Of a stretch of 64,000 nucleotides of DNA, positions 8,382 through 56,490 are shown one piece after another. Position 1 is the first letter of the stretch, and the number at the start of each line of letters is the position of its first letter. Location of the stretch: positions 62,001-126,000 of the forward strand of contig NZ_VCQV01000001.1 of NCBI RefSeq assembly GCF_007845645.1, written 5' to 3'. A program made the position numbers and the translations under genes. The notes beneath the pieces are model-generated. The model had not been told where the DNA came from. It saw nothing but the letters and a program-made list of their open reading frames with translations, and did not search any database. The stretch comes from Leekyejoonella antrihumi (GTDB taxonomy: Bacteria; Actinomycetota; Actinomycetes; Actinomycetales; Dermatophilaceae).

Positions 8382-8458
8382 CGCCGAGGGGCATACAAAC
8401 CCACCGAGCGGCACACCAATTTGGTATGCCGCTCGGTGCCGAGGTATGCCTCTCGGCG
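8382..8458. repeat. Class A nested palindromic element (copy R1)
   Basis: A 77-bp element between convergent genes. The outer arms CGCCGAGGGGCATAC (8382-8396) and GTATGCCTCTCGGCG (8444-8458) pair with one G/T wobble. An inner pair, CCGAGCGGCACAC and GTATGCCGCTCGG (8403-8436), makes a second nested stem. The order is two forward units followed by two inverted units. It matches the copies at 42460 and 43599. It may terminate transcription of both flanking genes. Confidence 0.85.
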
Positions 8459-12032: not shown

Positions 12033-13109
12033 ATGGCCGATGACCTCGGGCCGGACGACCCGGACCACCAGCAGCCCACCAGCGACTTCGATGACGGCGC
12101 ACCCGGTGCGGCGGCCGCCGCACCGACCAGACGACGCCGCAAGGCCGGCAGGGTCAAGGTGGCGCTGCTGACGCTGCTGACTCTGGTGCTGATCGTGGTG
12201 CTGGCAGGCGTCGGGTTCGCGCTGTACCTGAACCACCTGCTGGACTCCAACGTCCACCACTCGGCGCTGCTACCGACCACACCCGGGGGCCCGGCGCGCG
12301 TCGCGCAGGCCGGCAACGCCCAAAACATCCTGCTGCTCGGGTCGGACTCGCGTGACCCGTCGAACATCCACGTCGACTCACGATCCGACGTGATCCAGCT
12401 GGTGCACATCAGCAACAACTACAAGAGCATCCAGGTCATTCACTTCCCTCGAGACCTCTACGTGCCGATCCCGGGCCACGGCAAGAACAAGATCAACGCC
12501 GCGTACGCCTACGGGGGCGCACCCCTGCTGGTCACCACCATGCAGGACATGCTCGGTGTGCACATCGACCACGTCGCCCAGATCGGATTCACCGGCTTCG
12601 CCAAGGTCACCGACGACCTCGGCGGCGTCGACGTTTACGTGGCACAGGCATTCGACGAGAACGGCTTCGGCCACCTCACCAAAGGCTTCCACCACATGAA
12701 CGGCACCCAGGCCCTCGGATTCGTCCGCGAGCGTCACCAGCTGAAGGAGGGCGACATCGATCGCGGCCGCGATCAGCAGGCCTGGATCAAGGCCGTCCTG
12801 CAAAAGACGCTCAAGGCCGGCACTCTGCTGAATCCCATCACGCTCTCGAATATCCTGGACGACATCACCAAGACCACCGTGGTCGACGACGGGATGACCA
12901 CGGCATACATGCGAGACACTGCACTGAAGCTGCGCAACATCCGTGGCAACGACCTCACTTTCTTCACCGCGCCCTTCACCGGGTTCGCCTACAACAAGGT
13001 CGCGGGTGACATCGATGTGGTCAACGAGCCCAAGATGAAGCAGCTGGGTCACTCGCTGGCGATCGACGACATGAGCGCCTACACCGGCCCCCGCAACACC
13101 ATCCGCTGA
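12033..13109 (+). CDS. LytR-CpsA-Psr (LCP) family cell-wall glycopolymer ligase
   Basis: 358 residues. The cytoplasmic N-terminus is acidic then Arg-rich (TRRRRKAGR), with one TM helix at about 42-66 and an extracellular LCP domain. Catalytic-core motifs are NILLLGSDSRD, DVIQLVHI, IHFPRDLYVPIPG and FVRERHQLKEGDIDRGRDQQ, whose Arg and Asp residues bind the polyprenyl pyrophosphate. LCP enzymes attach wall teichoic acid, arabinogalactan-like or capsule polymers to peptidoglycan. The ATG at 12033 follows TACACT (12020-12025) by 7 nt with no SD, a leaderless pattern; upstream in-frame sequence is antisense to ygfZ. The nitrobindin-like gene follows after 32 bp. Confidence 0.9.
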   Translation: MADDLGPDDPDHQQPTSDFDDGAPGAAAAAPTRRRRKAGRVKVALLTLLTLVLIVVLAGVGFALYLNHLLDSNVHHSALLPTTPGGPARVAQAGNAQNILLLGSDSRDPSNIHVDSRSDVIQLVHISNNYKSIQVIHFPRDLYVPIPGHGKNKINAAYAYGGAPLLVTTMQDMLGVHIDHVAQIGFTGFAKVTDDLGGVDVYVAQAFDENGFGHLTKGFHHMNGTQALGFVRERHQLKEGDIDRGRDQQAWIKAVLQKTLKAGTLLNPITLSNILDDITKTTVVDDGMTTAYMRDTALKLRNIRGNDLTFFTAPFTGFAYNKVAGDIDVVNEPKMKQLGHSLAIDDMSAYTGPRNTIR

Positions 13110-13639: not shown

Positions 13640-13651
13640 CCCCACACCCCC

Positions 13652-13707
13652 CGCCGAGTGGCGCACATATTTGTGCTCCACTCGAGCGTTATCTACTCCA
13701 CTCGGCG
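13652..13707. repeat. Class B nested palindromic element (copy R2)
   Basis: 56 bp between convergent genes. The outer arms are CGCCGAGTGG (13652-13661) and CCACTCGGCG (13698-13707). An internal inverted unit GTGCTCCACTCGAG starts at 13673. An extra outer pair CTGACCCC/GGGGTCAG (13636-13643, 13712-13719) covers the stop codons of both neighbours. Its architecture matches class A but the unit word is CCGAGTGG rather than CCGAGAGGCATAC. It may be a bidirectional terminator. Confidence 0.78.
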
Positions 13708-13715
13708 AGATGGGG

Positions 13716-41408: not shown

Positions 41409-42449
41409 ATGCAGCCGATGCTTCGCTCCGTGGTGGCGCTGCCCAAGGCACACCTGCATCTGCACTTCACCGGATCGATGCGCATCGGCTCGGTGCACGA
41501 TCTGGCTCGCAAGCACGGCCTGAGCCTCCCGGATGCGCTCCGAACCTCCTGGCCACCGCAGCTGAGCGGCGCAGACGAACGCGGTTGGTTCCGCTTCCAG
41601 CGCCTCTATGACGCGGCACGGCACTGTGTCCAGGATGAGTCCGACCTGCGCCGGGTGGTGCGCGAGGCCGCCGAGGACGACGCGACCGAGGGATCACGCT
41701 GGCTGGAGATCCAGGTTGATCCCACGACGTACGCCGCGCGGTTGGGCGGTGTCACGCCGACGCTGGAGATCGTGCTGGACGAGGCCCGGTCGGCGTCCGA
41801 TGACCTCGGGATCGGCGTCGGCGTGATCGTGGCCGCGTCCCGAATGCGCCATCCGTTCGAGGCACGCACGCTCGCCCGTCTCGCGGCGCGGCACGTCGGC
41901 GAGGGGCCGGGTGCAGTGATCGGCTTCGGCCTGAGCAACGACGAACGCCGCGCCGACACGAGGGACTTTGCGCCTGCCTTCTCGCTCGCTCGCCGAGCCG
42001 GGCTACCCTCCGTGCCGCACGCGGGTGAGCTGCTCGGTCCTCGGGCGATCGGCGAGACGCTCGACACGCTGGCCCCGACTCGCCTCGGGCACGGGGTCCG
42101 CAGCGTCGAGTCCGACGAGATCCTCCACCGGATCGTGGACGGTGGCGTCGCCCTCGAGGTGTGTCCCGGCTCGAATGTCGCGCTCGGGGTCTACGCGACT
42201 GCGGCACAGGTGCCGCTGCGACGGCTGGTCGATGCCGGCGCACAGATCGCGCTGGGCGCGGACGATCCGATGCTCTTCGGCAGCCGCCTGGCCGATCAGT
42301 ACCGCTCCGCGCGGGAGGATCACGGGTTCACCGATGGGCAGTTGGCCGAACTGGCCCGCTCGTCGGTGCGGGTGTCATTCGCGCCGGAGGGCATCAAGAA
42401 GCAGACGCTGGCCGATATCGACGCCTGGTTGTCCGCCGACCCGGCCTGA
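41409..42449 (+). CDS. Adenosine deaminase-like amidohydrolase
   Basis: 346 residues, ADA family TIM barrel. The metal motif reads KAHLHLHFTGSMR (13-25): H17 and H19 fit the HxH ligands, but the usual E/D-G of HLDG is Thr-Gly (T21-G22), and residue 15 is His. Other active-site blocks are intact: VPHAGE (metal His and catalytic Glu), TRLGHGVRS, and LGADDPMLF with the metal Asp. It probably deaminates adenosine or a modified purine; the first-motif change means the substrate should not be assumed. The ATG at 41409 follows TACGGT (41397-41402) by 6 nt (leaderless). It is divergent from tRNA-Trp. Confidence 0.82.
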   Translation: MQPMLRSVVALPKAHLHLHFTGSMRIGSVHDLARKHGLSLPDALRTSWPPQLSGADERGWFRFQRLYDAARHCVQDESDLRRVVREAAEDDATEGSRWLEIQVDPTTYAARLGGVTPTLEIVLDEARSASDDLGIGVGVIVAASRMRHPFEARTLARLAARHVGEGPGAVIGFGLSNDERRADTRDFAPAFSLARRAGLPSVPHAGELLGPRAIGETLDTLAPTRLGHGVRSVESDEILHRIVDGGVALEVCPGSNVALGVYATAAQVPLRRLVDAGAQIALGADDPMLFGSRLADQYRSAREDHGFTDGQLAELARSSVRVSFAPEGIKKQTLADIDAWLSADPA

Positions 42450-42459
42450 CCCACCCACT

Positions 42460-42536
42460 CGCCGAGGGGCATACATTCACCCCGACAGGTGTACCTATTT
42501 TGTATGCCGCTCGATCGGTTTGTATGCCTCTCGGCG
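42460..42536. repeat. Class A nested palindromic element (copy R3)
   Basis: 77 bp. The outer arms CGCCGAGGGGCATACA (42460-42475) and TGTATGCCTCTCGGCG (42521-42536) have one mismatch. Inner units are CCGACAGGTGTAC (degenerate) and GTATGCCGCTCGA. The right-hand ~50 bp differs from copy R4 at about 4 positions. It is immediately downstream of the ADA-like gene and of the AbiEi-like gene (convergent). Confidence 0.85.
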
Positions 42537-42551
42537 CGGGCCTGTCAGATG

Positions 42552-43544
42552 TCAGATGTCCCAGGTCTCGTGGGCATCGGTTCGTAGTCCATGCCGCCTC
42601 ATCACTTCCTGATACTGCATGCTGTCCAGCGCGTCGTTCCACACCCACCGAGCGACCCGCCGCCGCCCACCACCACGCAGGCGGTCCTCACGAAGCTTCT
42701 CCTTCCAGAGGACCTGCGAGGCCTGCTCAGCAGTCAGCTGCGGTGTCGCGCGGTATTTCAGCCGCCCATCGAACTCGCCGATCAACCCGAGCTCCTCCCA
42801 CCAGAAGTCCACCCGGCCGATGAAACCATCCTCGTCGTCGAACCTCACCTGCAGCACTGGCCGTGGAATGCCCAGCTGAAACATCCGCGCACGACTCAGC
42901 GACTCTCCGACGGACTCGGAGCCGGCGTCCGCCAGGCGTATGACGAGTCTCGCCTTGCGTCTGCCGCGCGCCCCGGGTTTCAGCAGATCGACCTGGTCGC
43001 GCAGGTCCTGCGTCGTGCACAGCCGTTCGCGCAGAGCATGATCCGCTGCGGCGAGCCCCGATTCCAGCGGCACCTCCCTGGCCAGGTCGATGACCGTGCG
43101 ATCAGGGGCAGTGACCATCAGACCGTTCACCTCGACACCGTTCGGGATCTCTTGCGCGCGACGTCGCCGCACACCGGGCGTGCGGCCCGTGGTGCCCGCG
43201 GCGGTGATGTGCTCGATCAGCGCCGGCCGACGTCCGATGGTCGGAATGCCCCAGGCGGCCGCAGCCGTGTGGTGTGAGAAGAGCGGGGTGCCGCCTGCCG
43301 CCGCGGCCACGGCATACGCACGCAGCAGCAGGATCTCCTCAGGCGGCAGGTCCGCAGGGCCACAGACATAGATTCCTTTACGCACCCGCCGAAATGGCAG
43401 CATGCCGTCGGCGGCCGGACGTGCCGGGTCGATTCCGAGCCGGTCGAGCGTGGCCGCGGTGACCAATCTCAGATCAGGCCACGGCGGCTGCGGTTCCAGC
43501 CGGTCGGCCGGGTGGAGTGGGTCCGTGGCAGCACCGTGCGACAT
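42552..43544 (-). CDS. AbiEi-like N-domain / DUF559-type PD-(D/E)xK nuclease-like protein
   Basis: 330 residues. The N-terminal part (FRRVRKGIYVCGPADLPPEE, then LFSHHTAAAAWGIP) resembles the winged-helix/AbiEi antitoxin family. The C-terminal ~100 residues resemble the Vsr/DUF559 restriction fold: D246 in GRVDFWW, E257-F-D259 in LIGEFDGRLKY, then KEKLREDRLR. These could form a PD-(D/E)xK metal site. Similar proteins are abundant, variable and multi-copy in actinobacteria (recalled), with no established function. No toxin partner (AbiEii-like nucleotidyltransferase) is adjacent. It is bracketed by class A repeats R3 and R4, which is unusual. The ATG at 43544 gives the full ORF. Confidence 0.68.
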   Translation of the reverse strand: MSHGAATDPLHPADRLEPQPPWPDLRLVTAATLDRLGIDPARPAADGMLPFRRVRKGIYVCGPADLPPEEILLLRAYAVAAAAGGTPLFSHHTAAAAWGIPTIGRRPALIEHITAAGTTGRTPGVRRRRAQEIPNGVEVNGLMVTAPDRTVIDLAREVPLESGLAAADHALRERLCTTQDLRDQVDLLKPGARGRRKARLVIRLADAGSESVGESLSRARMFQLGIPRPVLQVRFDDEDGFIGRVDFWWEELGLIGEFDGRLKYRATPQLTAEQASQVLWKEKLREDRLRGGGRRRVARWVWNDALDSMQYQEVMRRHGLRTDAHETWDI

Positions 43545-43598
43545 TCCGGAAGCCTGCCACTGCGCAGAGCCCGACCACGGAAGTTATCCACAGCCTCA

Positions 43599-43670
43599 CC
43601 GAGAGGCATACTTGCGCCCGAGAGGTGCACACATTTTGTATGCCGCTCGATCGGTGTGTATGCCTCTCGG
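43599..43670. repeat. Class A nested palindromic element (copy R4)
   Basis: 72 bp with perfect 13-bp outer arms, CCGAGAGGCATAC (43599-43611) and GTATGCCTCTCGG (43658-43670). Inner units are CCGAGAGGTGCAC and GTATGCCGCTCGAT. It lies just beyond the stop of the membrane-anchored gene at 43680 and upstream of the AbiEi-like gene. Same orientation as R1 and R3. Confidence 0.87.
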
Positions 43671-43679
43671 CGGGTGGAC

Positions 43680-44051
43680 CTACCAGTCCAGCCCGGCCTG
43701 AGCCAGTTCCGCCTCGAGCTGCAGTCGCTCCACACCGTCCAGCTCCCGGCCATCCGGGACCGGCACGTCCAGCGCGTCGCAGCACATCCGCAGCGTGTCG
43801 TCGTAGGCCAGGCCCACCGCCGTCAGCCGGTGCACCTTGGCTGGGGCGCGCGAGACCCGCAATCGGCACATCTCGTCGGCCAGCCAGTGCAGATCGACCG
43901 CCATCCGCTCCACCGGCGGATGAGTCGGCGCCGAGGTCGAGCGGCGGCGCAGGGGGCGCATCCCGTTGCAGGCGCGCCACGACCATCCAAGCAGCAGGAA
44001 GAACGCCGCCGGTCCGACACAGATACCGACAAAGATCGCGAGCGCTTCCAT
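43680..44051 (-). CDS. Conserved actinobacterial membrane-anchored protein, unknown function
   Basis: 123 residues. One N-terminal TM helix (about 3-24, ALAIFVGICVGPAAFFLLLGW) is followed by a basic segment (RPLRRRST) and a cytoplasmic helical domain with VERMAVDLHWLADEM and HRLTAVGLAYDDTLRMCCDAL. The LAYDDTL...A.DV pattern recurs in small actinobacterial proteins of unknown role (recalled). GGAGGTG lies 5 nt before the ATG at 44051. Confidence 0.72.
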   Translation of the reverse strand: MEALAIFVGICVGPAAFFLLLGWSWRACNGMRPLRRRSTSAPTHPPVERMAVDLHWLADEMCRLRVSRAPAKVHRLTAVGLAYDDTLRMCCDALDVPVPDGRELDGVERLQLEAELAQAGLDW

Positions 44052-44150: not shown

Positions 44151-45224
44151 TCAGAGTTGGTGGCCCACGAGGACCGGCTCGTTGACGAGCCGGACGCCGA
44201 ACGCCTCCTCGACGCCGTCACGGACCTCCCGTGCCAGGGCCACGACGTCGGCAGCCTTGGCGTCACCGCGGTTCGTCACGGCGAGGGTGTGCTTGGTCGA
44301 CAGCGCCGCCGGCCCCGGCATCCCATAGCCCTTGGCGAATCCGGCCTTGTCGATCAACCAGGCGGCGGCGGTCTTGATCCGCCCGTCCACGGCCGGGAAC
44401 TCCGGCGGCACCGGCCCGTCCGACCCCAGCCGGTCGGCCGCCCGCCGCCGGAACTGCGCAAACGAGGTCCGGTCCAGGATCGGGTTGGTGAAGAACGACC
44501 CGCACGACCAGGTGTCGTGATCGTCGGGGTCCAGCACCATCCCGCGGCTGCGCCGCTGCCGGAGCACCGCCGCACGGGCATCGCCGAGCGGCACCCGGTC
44601 ACCGACGGCGACGCCCAGACCGTCCGCGAGCGCGGCATACGCGATGGGCTGCGACAGCGTCGCCGGCCGCAGCTGGAAGAGCACGTCGAGCACGACGTAG
44701 CGCGACGATGCCTTGAAGATCGAGTGCCGGTAGGTGAAGGCGCAGTCCGTGTTCGCGAAGGTATGCACCTGCTGGGTGCGCCGGTCGAAGACCCGTACCT
44801 GCGCGATGGTCTGGGCCACCTCCTGGCCATAGGCGCCGACGTTCTGCACCGGGGTCGCTCCGGTCAGACCGGGTATGCCGGACAGCGCCTCGACGCCGGC
44901 CCACCCCTGCTCACAGGCGTGGGCGACGAAATCGTCCCACGCCTCCCCCGCAGCAACCCGCACGTTGACCCCACCGCACTGGTCGTCCGACTCCACCCGC
45001 ACACCGGACGTCGCGATGCGCACGACGGTGCCGGAGAACCCGTCATCGGCGATGACCAGATTCGAGCCACCGGACAGCAGCAGCAGCGGCTCGTCCGCGT
45101 CGTCGACCTCGCGCACCGCGTCGACCAGGGCGTCGGTCGACTCGACGGTGACCAGTCGGGCCGCGGGTCCACCCACGCGCATCGTGGTGAGCGGGGCCAG
45201 TGGCGCGGCCCACTCCTGTTTCAC
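44151..45224 (-). CDS. murB: UDP-N-acetylenolpyruvoylglucosamine reductase
   Basis: 357 residues. The FAD-binding N-domain shows TTMRVGGPAARLV, LLLSGGSNLVIAD and LSGIPGLTGATPVQNVGAYGQE. The catalytic block is SCGSFFTNP with the Ser general acid, and FTYRHSIFK carries the substrate-binding Tyr/Arg. It makes UDP-MurNAc for peptidoglycan in the cytoplasm. The GTG start at 45224 (VKQEWAAPLAPL) lies 7 bp after the MaoC-domain gene, with GAGGC upstream; the longer in-frame start overlaps that gene and is rejected. Confidence 0.94.
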   Translation of the reverse strand: MKQEWAAPLAPLTTMRVGGPAARLVTVESTDALVDAVREVDDADEPLLLLSGGSNLVIADDGFSGTVVRIATSGVRVESDDQCGGVNVRVAAGEAWDDFVAHACEQGWAGVEALSGIPGLTGATPVQNVGAYGQEVAQTIAQVRVFDRRTQQVHTFANTDCAFTYRHSIFKASSRYVVLDVLFQLRPATLSQPIAYAALADGLGVAVGDRVPLGDARAAVLRQRRSRGMVLDPDDHDTWSCGSFFTNPILDRTSFAQFRRRAADRLGSDGPVPPEFPAVDGRIKTAAAWLIDKAGFAKGYGMPGPAALSTKHTLAVTNRGDAKAADVVALAREVRDGVEEAFGVRLVNEPVLVGHQL

Positions 45225-45231
45225 CCGTGCC

Positions 45232-45657
45232 TCAGCCCAGATCGACGGTGGCCAGCGCCCGGCTGAGGACCTTCGCGCCACCGACGGAGGCAGTGATGTC
45301 GATGACGACGCGCCTGCGCTCCTCATCGAGCGATTTGACGCGGCCGGCTACGGCCACGTCGGTGCCGCTGTCGTACGGGACGGGCACGGGAGCGCTGAAC
45401 CGCACGGTGTACTCGACGACGCGGCCCGCGTCACCGGCCCAGTCGACAACGATCTGGATGGCCGATCCCATCGTCCACATGCCGTGCGCGATGACATCCG
45501 GCAGGCCGACCGAGGTGGCGAACCGGTCGTCGTAATGGATCGGGTTGAAGTCGAGGCTCGCCCCCGCGTAGCGCACCATCGTGGCGCGCTCGACGTGCAC
45601 GGTGGCTCCGGGGATCTGATCCCCGACGGACAACTGGTCGAAGTCTGGCGCGCCCAC
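45232..45657 (-). CDS. MaoC-family dehydratase (HadB-like)
   Basis: 141 residues, a single hot-dog fold. The hydratase motif ASLDFNPIHYDDRFA with Asp and His, and the VIAHGMWTMG helix, form the (R)-specific enoyl hydratase active site. In mycobacteria HadB pairs with HadA or HadC in FAS-II 3-hydroxyacyl-ACP dehydration. Here the same gene order (tRNA/rpmG/hadA/hadB) occurs in an organism not shown to make mycolates. The GTG start at 45657 overlaps the upstream stop by one base (TAGTG). Confidence 0.88.
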   Translation of the reverse strand: MGAPDFDQLSVGDQIPGATVHVERATMVRYAGASLDFNPIHYDDRFATSVGLPDVIAHGMWTMGSAIQIVVDWAGDAGRVVEYTVRFSAPVPVPYDSGTDVAVAGRVKSLDEERRRVVIDITASVGGAKVLSRALATVDLG

Positions 45658-56377: not shown

Positions 56378-56415
56378 CGTCGTCTCCTTCCAGCGGCTCG
56401 TTCGAGCCTACTTTC

Positions 56416-56477
56416 CCCCGCCGAGTGGAGTAGTTGTACGTGCTCCGCTCGAGCACTATGTGCTCCACTCGGCGGGG
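56416..56477. repeat. Class B nested palindromic element (copy R5)
   Basis: 62 bp with perfect 15-bp outer arms, CCCCGCCGAGTGGAG (56416-56430) and CTCCACTCGGCGGGG (56463-56477). An inner hairpin GTGCT...AGCAC surrounds CTCGAG (56440-56456). It is 13 bp downstream of the leftward helicase stop. Same architecture and orientation as copy R2. Confidence 0.85.
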
Positions 56478-56490
56478 AGGGAGCGGGTGG

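Follow-up and report, generated by a model that had tools for sequence, protein, structure and literature searches.

What kind of unit is formed by a nuclease-like gene and the two similar palindromes between which it lies, and do gene and palindromes belong together? The question is raised by a locus in a 64-kb window, which is the whole stretch of DNA analysed here (64,000 nt) and comes from a 5.32-Mb draft genome (G000, contig C1:62001-126000), the only genome of its genus in our comparison. The original prediction placed a nuclease gene here between two palindromes, R3 and R4, that face the same way. This was confirmed: the gene, which we call NUC, is an open frame, R3 and R4 are 87% identical, and both are assigned the same orientation by model R1, which was built from 24 copies of the class-A array family to which they belong (Table 1). 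Related palindromes had also been claimed at three more sites in the window, and they are indeed present, one of class A and two of class B. R3 lies 10 nt past the stop codon of the adenosine deaminase gene (ADA) and 15 nt past that of NUC, these two genes being convergent. R4 lies 7 nt past the stop codon of a gene for a 123-aa protein, a homologue of which was found at the same place in only one of 20 relatives' loci (G004). Both form much stronger folds than shuffled sequences do, the z scores of the two strands being -6.3 and -4.6 for R3 and -5.8 and -7.6 for R4. The known RNAs found in the window at gathering thresholds are three tRNAs and nothing else.

Table 1. Features of the NUC locus and related arrays in the 64-kb window
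Feature	Position in window	Strand	Basis
NUC, 330 aa, putative AbiEi-like N-terminal half and Vsr/DUF559-type nuclease half	42552..43544	-	open frame
R3, class-A array, four modules (two direct, two inverted)	42460..42536	-	model R1, 92.8 bits
R4, class-A array upstream of NUC	43597..43672	-	model R1, 87.1 bits
CTGTGGATAAC motif (complement GTTATCCACAG), between R4 and NUC start	43583..43593	-	sequence
Solo class-A array	8382..8458	.	model R1, 89.4 bits; 14 nt past a stop
Solo class-B array	13648..13714	.	
Solo class-B array	56415..56481	.	
Adenosine deaminase (ADA), neighbour	41409..42449	+	NCBIfam/Pfam
123-aa protein, no family match, neighbour	43680..44051	-	
MurB, neighbour used for synteny	44151..45326	-	

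The Pfam profile AbiEi_1 matches the window NUC weakly (E 0.036), and neither DUF559 nor MTES_1575 gave a profile match in this protein itself. Among 23 NUC homologues, matches were obtained to AbiEi_1 in 4, to DUF559 in 3, to MTES_1575 in 2 and to AbiEi_4 in 1; MTES_1575 is a Vsr-fold nuclease according to PMC3710099. When 71 homologous proteins were compared, E214 was conserved in 71, D246 in 70, E257 in 70, D259 in 69, K263 in 66 and R285 in 69, and the acidic catalytic residues and the lysine of a Vsr/DUF559-type enzyme are present across this set. Among protein pairs with an overall identity of 45-75%, the nuclease half is the better conserved one, at 63-69% identity against 44-52% for the N-terminal half. 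An AlphaFold model based on four sequences (pLDDT 53.6) has a helix, three strands and a helix at 212-290; comparison of this low-confidence model with known folds placed the AbiE-like MenAT1 at Z 3.1 among unrelated entries, with no clear match, and a profile search of solved structures gave one chance match (E 0.046).

Homologues of NUC occur in 47 of 149 genomes at the family level (E<=1e-30) and, in the class Actinomycetes, in 197 of 296 genomes and 90 of 115 genera (E<=1e-25). At each locus, a stretch of 500 nt ahead of the hit was compared, using both strands, with the 300 nt that follow the stop codon. The flanks matched each other with a score of 20 or more at 66 of 74 family-level loci (median 34.5; 60 of 66 when this genome is left out) and at 19 of 25 class-level loci (median 46), so that 8 and 6 loci, respectively, fell below this score. 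In contrast, only 1 of 210 control genes reached it, and that one is a NUC paralogue; upstream and downstream flanks paired across genomes had a median score of 11.5 (3,000 pairs). Bracketing of NUC by paired repeats is not due to chance, and it is commoner for NUC than for other genes. Most members of the NUC family, which is common in Actinomycetes, are bracketed by two locus-specific copies of an array. The predicted REPtron-like link between the nuclease and palindromes that both bracket it and are scattered is thus supported and turns out to be general; the movement by the nuclease that it implied is something that we infer. The counts before a recount were 67 of 76 at the family level and 23 of 31 at the class level. 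In the family set, L172 was skipped (N-run) and L168 and L175 were dropped (cut contigs with a mis-set gene end), L175 having scored 91 through overlap with itself. In the class set, L080 was skipped, and the recount omits L224, L229, L232 and L234 (short contigs; L234 was an artefact) as well as L081 and L082 (scores of 14.0 and 18.5).

A protein search found eight NUC genes in this genome, six of which score at least 20, each with different repeats. Paralogues that are not flanked by the palindromes had been named beforehand as evidence against the link. Such paralogues exist if this is taken literally, as no class-A copy was present near 6 of the 7 paralogues of the window NUC (about 4 kb read on each side, except for the C102 paralogue, where one side was read over 1.4 kb); near the seventh, a copy lies at a distance of 1.3 kb, beyond an intervening gene. 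In substance the link is not contradicted, because the paralogues have their own, different repeats, with which 5 of the 7 score at least 20.

By eye, the arrays are made of modules of about 11 bp, often two or three in direct orientation and then two or three inverted. Lags and modules were counted at the 67 loci with a score of at least 18 and a full-length protein. Four or more copies of an 11-mer were present over both flanks together at 63 of 67 loci in a module search that had no shuffle control. At the family level, self-similarity had a lag of 19 in 62 and of 20 in 27 of 134 copies, compared to about 2 in shuffles; at the class level these lags were found in 10 and 20 of 42 copies, and other lags in at most 3. 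Control intergenic segments showed lags 19 and 20 in 8 and 5 of 131 cases, with a mean of 3.1 at other lags. Self-complementarity exceeded the 99th percentile of shuffles in 90 of 134 family-level copies and in 34 of 50 class-level copies, the latter count still including short contigs. The array sequences are wholly different between lineages; what they have in common is modules of about 11 bp at a spacing of 19-20 bp. This constant 19-20-base rhythm, together with the bracketing and the solo copies, suggests an unrecognised nuclease-and-repeat system. Two NUC homologues of G004 (L283 and L285) are flanked by longer tandem units and not by 19-20-bp arrays. On inspection, the class-A consensus starts with CGCCGAG and ends with CTCGGCG. 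Its inner arms keep mismatches: two positions are unpaired in 15 and in 17 of the 24 copies, respectively. Class-A pairs show no covariation beyond that of shuffles. Although the arrays are self-complementary, RNA structure was therefore rejected as the conserved feature.

Between the upstream array and the gene stands CTGTGGATAAC, which we take to be a DnaA-box-like motif. It was found upstream of 51 of 76 NUC loci versus 4 of 428 control genes; a count of 52 of 77 is not independent, because the NUC starts were then chosen by a motif-seeking rule, which was not used for the 51 of 76. The motif lies about 50 nt ahead of the NUC start and is followed by a TGNCANNNT-like word. It may represent a promoter or a link to replication.

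R3 and R4 are copies of a palindromic array of about 77 bp that is dispersed through the genome. With R3 as the query (81 nt), 30 two-strand matches were obtained at E<=1e-3, and with model R1 at least 73 at E<=1, where 150 of 2,509 first-look candidates were scored. We read 36 array sites together with their neighbouring genes, 8 of which have class-B modules; the R1 hits at C68:31096, C52:239792 and C107:124955 and the class-B sites of the window are not part of this set. A stop codon lies within 25 nt of 27 of these sites and a start codon within 25 nt of 3, and 18 sites are between convergent genes, whereas random intergenic placement would put 0.188 of positions near a stop. Because of these 27 sites, we regard most of the palindromes as elements of gene 3' ends, and both R3 and R4 likewise follow closely on neighbouring stops.

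This distribution bears on whether the arrays are simply regulatory, in the sense that NUC would bind its upstream array to repress itself, the other arrays would be a regulon or insulators, and nothing would move. AbiEi represses its own promoter, to which it binds at paired inverted repeats of 11 bp (PMC3985639), and one array of NUC does lie just upstream of a promoter-like motif. However, the second array lies past a stop codon, the solo arrays are found at gene 3' ends and not at promoters, and the catalytic residues, which a pure regulator would not need, are kept. We consider a purely regulatory role unlikely. The same positions, and the strong hairpins, would be expected if the arrays were ordinary terminators or mRNA 3'-end elements homogenised by plain recombination, with NUC merely insulated by two of them. 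Terminators of this kind would not explain why matching repeats bracket NUC genes and hardly any control gene, nor do they need the 19-20-bp spacing of modules or inner mismatches that are conserved without covariation, so that this explanation is in our view decidedly improbable. The narrower alternative in the original prediction, that R4 ends the 123-aa gene, agrees with its position and may also be true, because R3 and R4 sit where terminators would.

The explanation that we prefer is a nuclease-and-repeat element made up of NUC and the two arrays on either side of it, which would act in the manner of a REPtron or a homing element but with a different enzyme, and we would give this about an even chance of being correct. 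Three observations on the dispersed arrays count against a nuclease-driven model. The class-B arrays have no cognate NUC among the NUC hits of this genome; one NUC repeat of this genome is barely dispersed; and few neighbour sites are held in common. As to the second of these, that repeat consists of two flanking copies and one weak match only, and therefore arrays are not always dispersed. As to the third, comparison of the neighbours of the palindrome sites of this genome with NUC loci elsewhere gave one cross-genome match above 45% identity, between the gene to the right of C1:42875 and L172 (G067), at 67%, while the other cross-genome matches were 25-43% identical; shared insertion sites were rejected on this near absence of common neighbours. 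Class B is a second array family with GAGTGGAGYAS modules at about 11 sites (L114-L120, L146, L252 and the two window sites), one copy of which follows clpB. Two class-A arrays at G000:C51:6264-6340 and 12208-12283 (L128), 6 kb apart, are unusually alike, as if copied locally.

Of 99 family genomes searched with model R1, 8, from 4 of 53 genera, gave class-A-like arrays; absences in the other family genomes carry little weight, because stricter filters were used and 48 candidates were scored per genome. NUC homologues of at least 220 bits are present in 14 family genomes, and apart from the present genome all those with such arrays, 7 in number, belong to these 14. Two searched genomes of those 14, G091 and G023, gave no class-A-like arrays. 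In a check for phage or plasmid carriage, partial weak matches were obtained in 3 of 72,556 plasmid records and in 1 of 50,697 phage records, and a scan of viral contigs matched 116 stretches, none of them a relative. Carriage by phages or plasmids was rejected on these few weak matches.

The array sequences differ between genomes like dialects. For 37 of a sample of 42 solo arrays, the closest NUC flank was one from the same genome (all 10 in G039, all 10 in G047 and 17 of 22 here); the result for G047 is that with the full flank, a partial flank having given 3 of 10. For the remaining 5 of the 22 arrays in this genome, a NUC flank of another genome scores higher. The module core is GAGAGGC 33 times and never GAGTGGC in G039, and GAGTGGC 36 times and never GAGAGGC in G047, while this genome has 36 GAGAGGC, 21 GAGCGGC and no GAGTGGC. 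Single solo arrays of G080, G076, G096 and G026 resemble, by eye, the flanks of a NUC of their own genome, and a solo array of G069 fits its own NUC flanks more poorly. Among pairs of NUC genes with the same neighbour and less than 70% identity, the flanks within a locus are more alike than the orthologous flanks in 80 of 82 cases, a sign of concerted evolution; above 70% identity this is so in 6 of 10. For NUC genes at different loci, repeat similarity is at background even at 55-60% NUC identity, and repeat and NUC similarity between loci are nearly unlinked (Spearman 0.19). Like the 5 arrays that are closer to a foreign flank, the 6 of 10 pairs above 70% identity and the loci with flank scores below 20, this speaks against the nuclease-driven model. 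By eye, related NUC genes of several genera nevertheless have related modules of the GASNGGC type beside them even where their neighbour genes differ.

The original prediction had called for a comparison of syntenic loci in relatives, and its outcome differs between two sites. At the window locus itself, the convergent ADA-MurB pair was looked for at the loci of 20 relatives. It is present in 19 of them, and in the remaining one the contig breaks off too early; all 19 readable gaps have neither NUC nor a class-A array. The other site, behind clpB, was compared in 21 genomes. NUC follows clpB in six of them (G039, G101, G076, G026, G122 and G096), and an array without NUC, recognised by eye, follows it in five (this genome, with class B, and G104, G113, G069 and G004). 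G080 and G047 have a simple palindrome of other sequence there, and no array was recognised after clpB in the other eight. Opposite clpB lies a convergent gene that we putatively label hydrolase-like. The gap between the two holds array-NUC-array in G039 and G076 and one array in this genome. The hydrolase match starts 1,237 nt (G039) and 1,226 nt (G076) past the clpB stop, and the hydrolase gene starts 163 nt past it in this genome, 91 nt in G080 and 82 nt in G047. Occupied and empty alleles at one orthologous site, such as a homing element would show, are thus found in the clpB/hydrolase gap. In G080 (L253) and G047 (L255), the gap is filled by a GGTTGTCCGCA palindrome; no NUC with a GGTTGTCCGCA repeat was found among the loci examined. 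In G004, an array of CGCGARACGTCA modules was first noticed after ADA and after clpB, apart from any nuclease. A later search of this genome gave six NUC homologues (locus L289 was left out for a mis-set end), one of which, L287, bears out a prediction of the model: it has a CGCGARACGTCA array on both sides, the upstream one with 2 exact modules and the downstream one with 8. Apart from this NUC, ADA and clpB were the only places with the motif among the loci examined at that stage.

These site states, and flanks that match each other and not those of close NUC relatives elsewhere, would also follow if NUC had inserted into a local palindrome and doubled it as a long target-site duplication, without specific recognition, and at sites that NUC occupies in one genome, others do carry just one array or palindrome; but GASNGGC-type modules stay with related NUC genes, class-A-like arrays were found, among 99 genomes, only in those with a close NUC homologue, and the 19-20-bp spacing recurs with unrelated sequences, which makes such duplications very improbable.

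We return to the nuclease-and-repeat element. Its AbiEi-like N-terminal domain would bind the array modules, a step that is plausible because AbiEi binds paired inverted repeats of 11 bp (PMC3985639). The Vsr/DUF559-type domain would then nick or cut in or near the arrays, and repair from another array would copy array sequence and, on occasion, carry a complete array-NUC-array cassette over to a solo array. As such array-templated repair would copy array sequence, dialects would, we propose, arise from it. Recombination between the flanking arrays may delete NUC and leave a solo array, in the way that solo LTRs form. Just past stop codons an insertion would be harmless, and arrays there may double as terminators. 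In its widest form, this would be a class-wide gene-and-repeat element of a kind not recognised before. PD-(D/E)XK nucleases with an AbiEi-like DNA-binding domain, each bracketed by an array of its own with a 19-20-bp period, would cut at gene 3' ends and, through repair on an array template, place copies of their genes or arrays there; they would impose a nuclease-specific dialect on intergenic palindromes, with solo arrays left after NUC loss; this wider model could, we judge, equally well be right or wrong.

Several known systems resemble NUC and its arrays in part. REPtrons combine REP palindromes with RAYT/TnpA-REP Y1 transposases (PMC3733652, PMC8266576 and PMC6006769). As in a REPtron, an enzyme gene is flanked here by palindromes that are also dispersed, as R3, R4 and their copies are, and that are extragenic and lineage-specific. 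The enzyme is different: in place of a Y1 enzyme there is a protein putatively of the PD-(D/E)XK type that carries an AbiEi-like domain, and NUC has no Y1 HUH domain. So are the repeats, which are arrays of modules with a 19-20-bp period in place of repeats with a GTAG/CGTC end; neither GTAG nor CGTC was seen at the end of the class-A consensus on inspection, which covered class A only. A Y1 transposase as the driver was rejected, since a search of this genome for a Y1 gene (PF01797) gave no match while the controls were positive. AbiE type IV toxin-antitoxin systems appear to share with NUC the AbiEi-like N-terminal region, and their AbiEi binds inverted repeats (PMC3985639). There, however, the protein has an antitoxin domain where NUC has a putative nuclease half, and the arrays of NUC lie on both sides of the gene and are dispersed. 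No gene for an AbiEii nucleotidyltransferase toxin adjoins NUC in the window, where its neighbours are ADA and the 123-aa gene. The NUC element is thus not a REPtron, since the genome lacks a Y1 enzyme, and it is not an AbiE toxin-antitoxin pair either, since no toxin gene adjoins it in the window.

Certain Vsr-fold enzymes bring about the insertion of their own genes into sites. NUC shares acidic catalytic residues with the Vsr-fold nucleases DUF559 and MTES_1575 and perhaps with the EDxHD homing endonucleases, but it lies between two arrays, whereas the Vsr-like homing endonucleases lie in an intron or a split site. Iterons of plasmid origins have direct modules at a spacing of roughly two turns, a winged-helix protein and a DnaA-box-like motif nearby. 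The NUC loci appear to share all three features; unlike iterons, their arrays are chromosomal, bracketing, mirrored, dispersed at gene ends and placed beside a nuclease. The four-module layout may also recall the attC-like palindrome that follows the gene in an integron cassette. The Vsr-like homing endonucleases of the EDxHD kind are listed as a family in PMC6083498. Among the titles and beginnings of abstracts that we searched, with subscription journals and preprints mostly outside the coverage, no work linking AbiEi/DUF559-type nucleases with flanking repeats was found. We rate the link between NUC and its arrays as categorically new as a gene-repeat partnership, though it would work like known ones.

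We know of no role for the toxin-less AbiEi/DUF559-like genes, of which Actinomycetes have several per genome, and to our knowledge the origin of the lineage-specific intergenic palindromes in Actinomycetes has no explanation either. A link between the two supplies each of them with a function that can be put to the test. If the link is true, a partnership of the REPtron kind would have been invented a second time, independently and with another class of enzyme. The dozens of natural pairs of nuclease and array, with their divergent dialects of about 11 bp, form a data set for how the domain reads DNA.

Two smaller observations concern the repeats of individual lineages. At three loci, each from a different species of one genus (L155, L156 and L157 in G110, G128 and G091), NUC has the same neighbour gene and visibly different repeats. 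At the class level, a number of repeats (L226-L229, L232, L237-L239, L241, L244 and L246-L248) have a similar start, GATCACGT or GACCACGT, and these ends, compared by eye, are common to different genera, like terminal inverted repeats.
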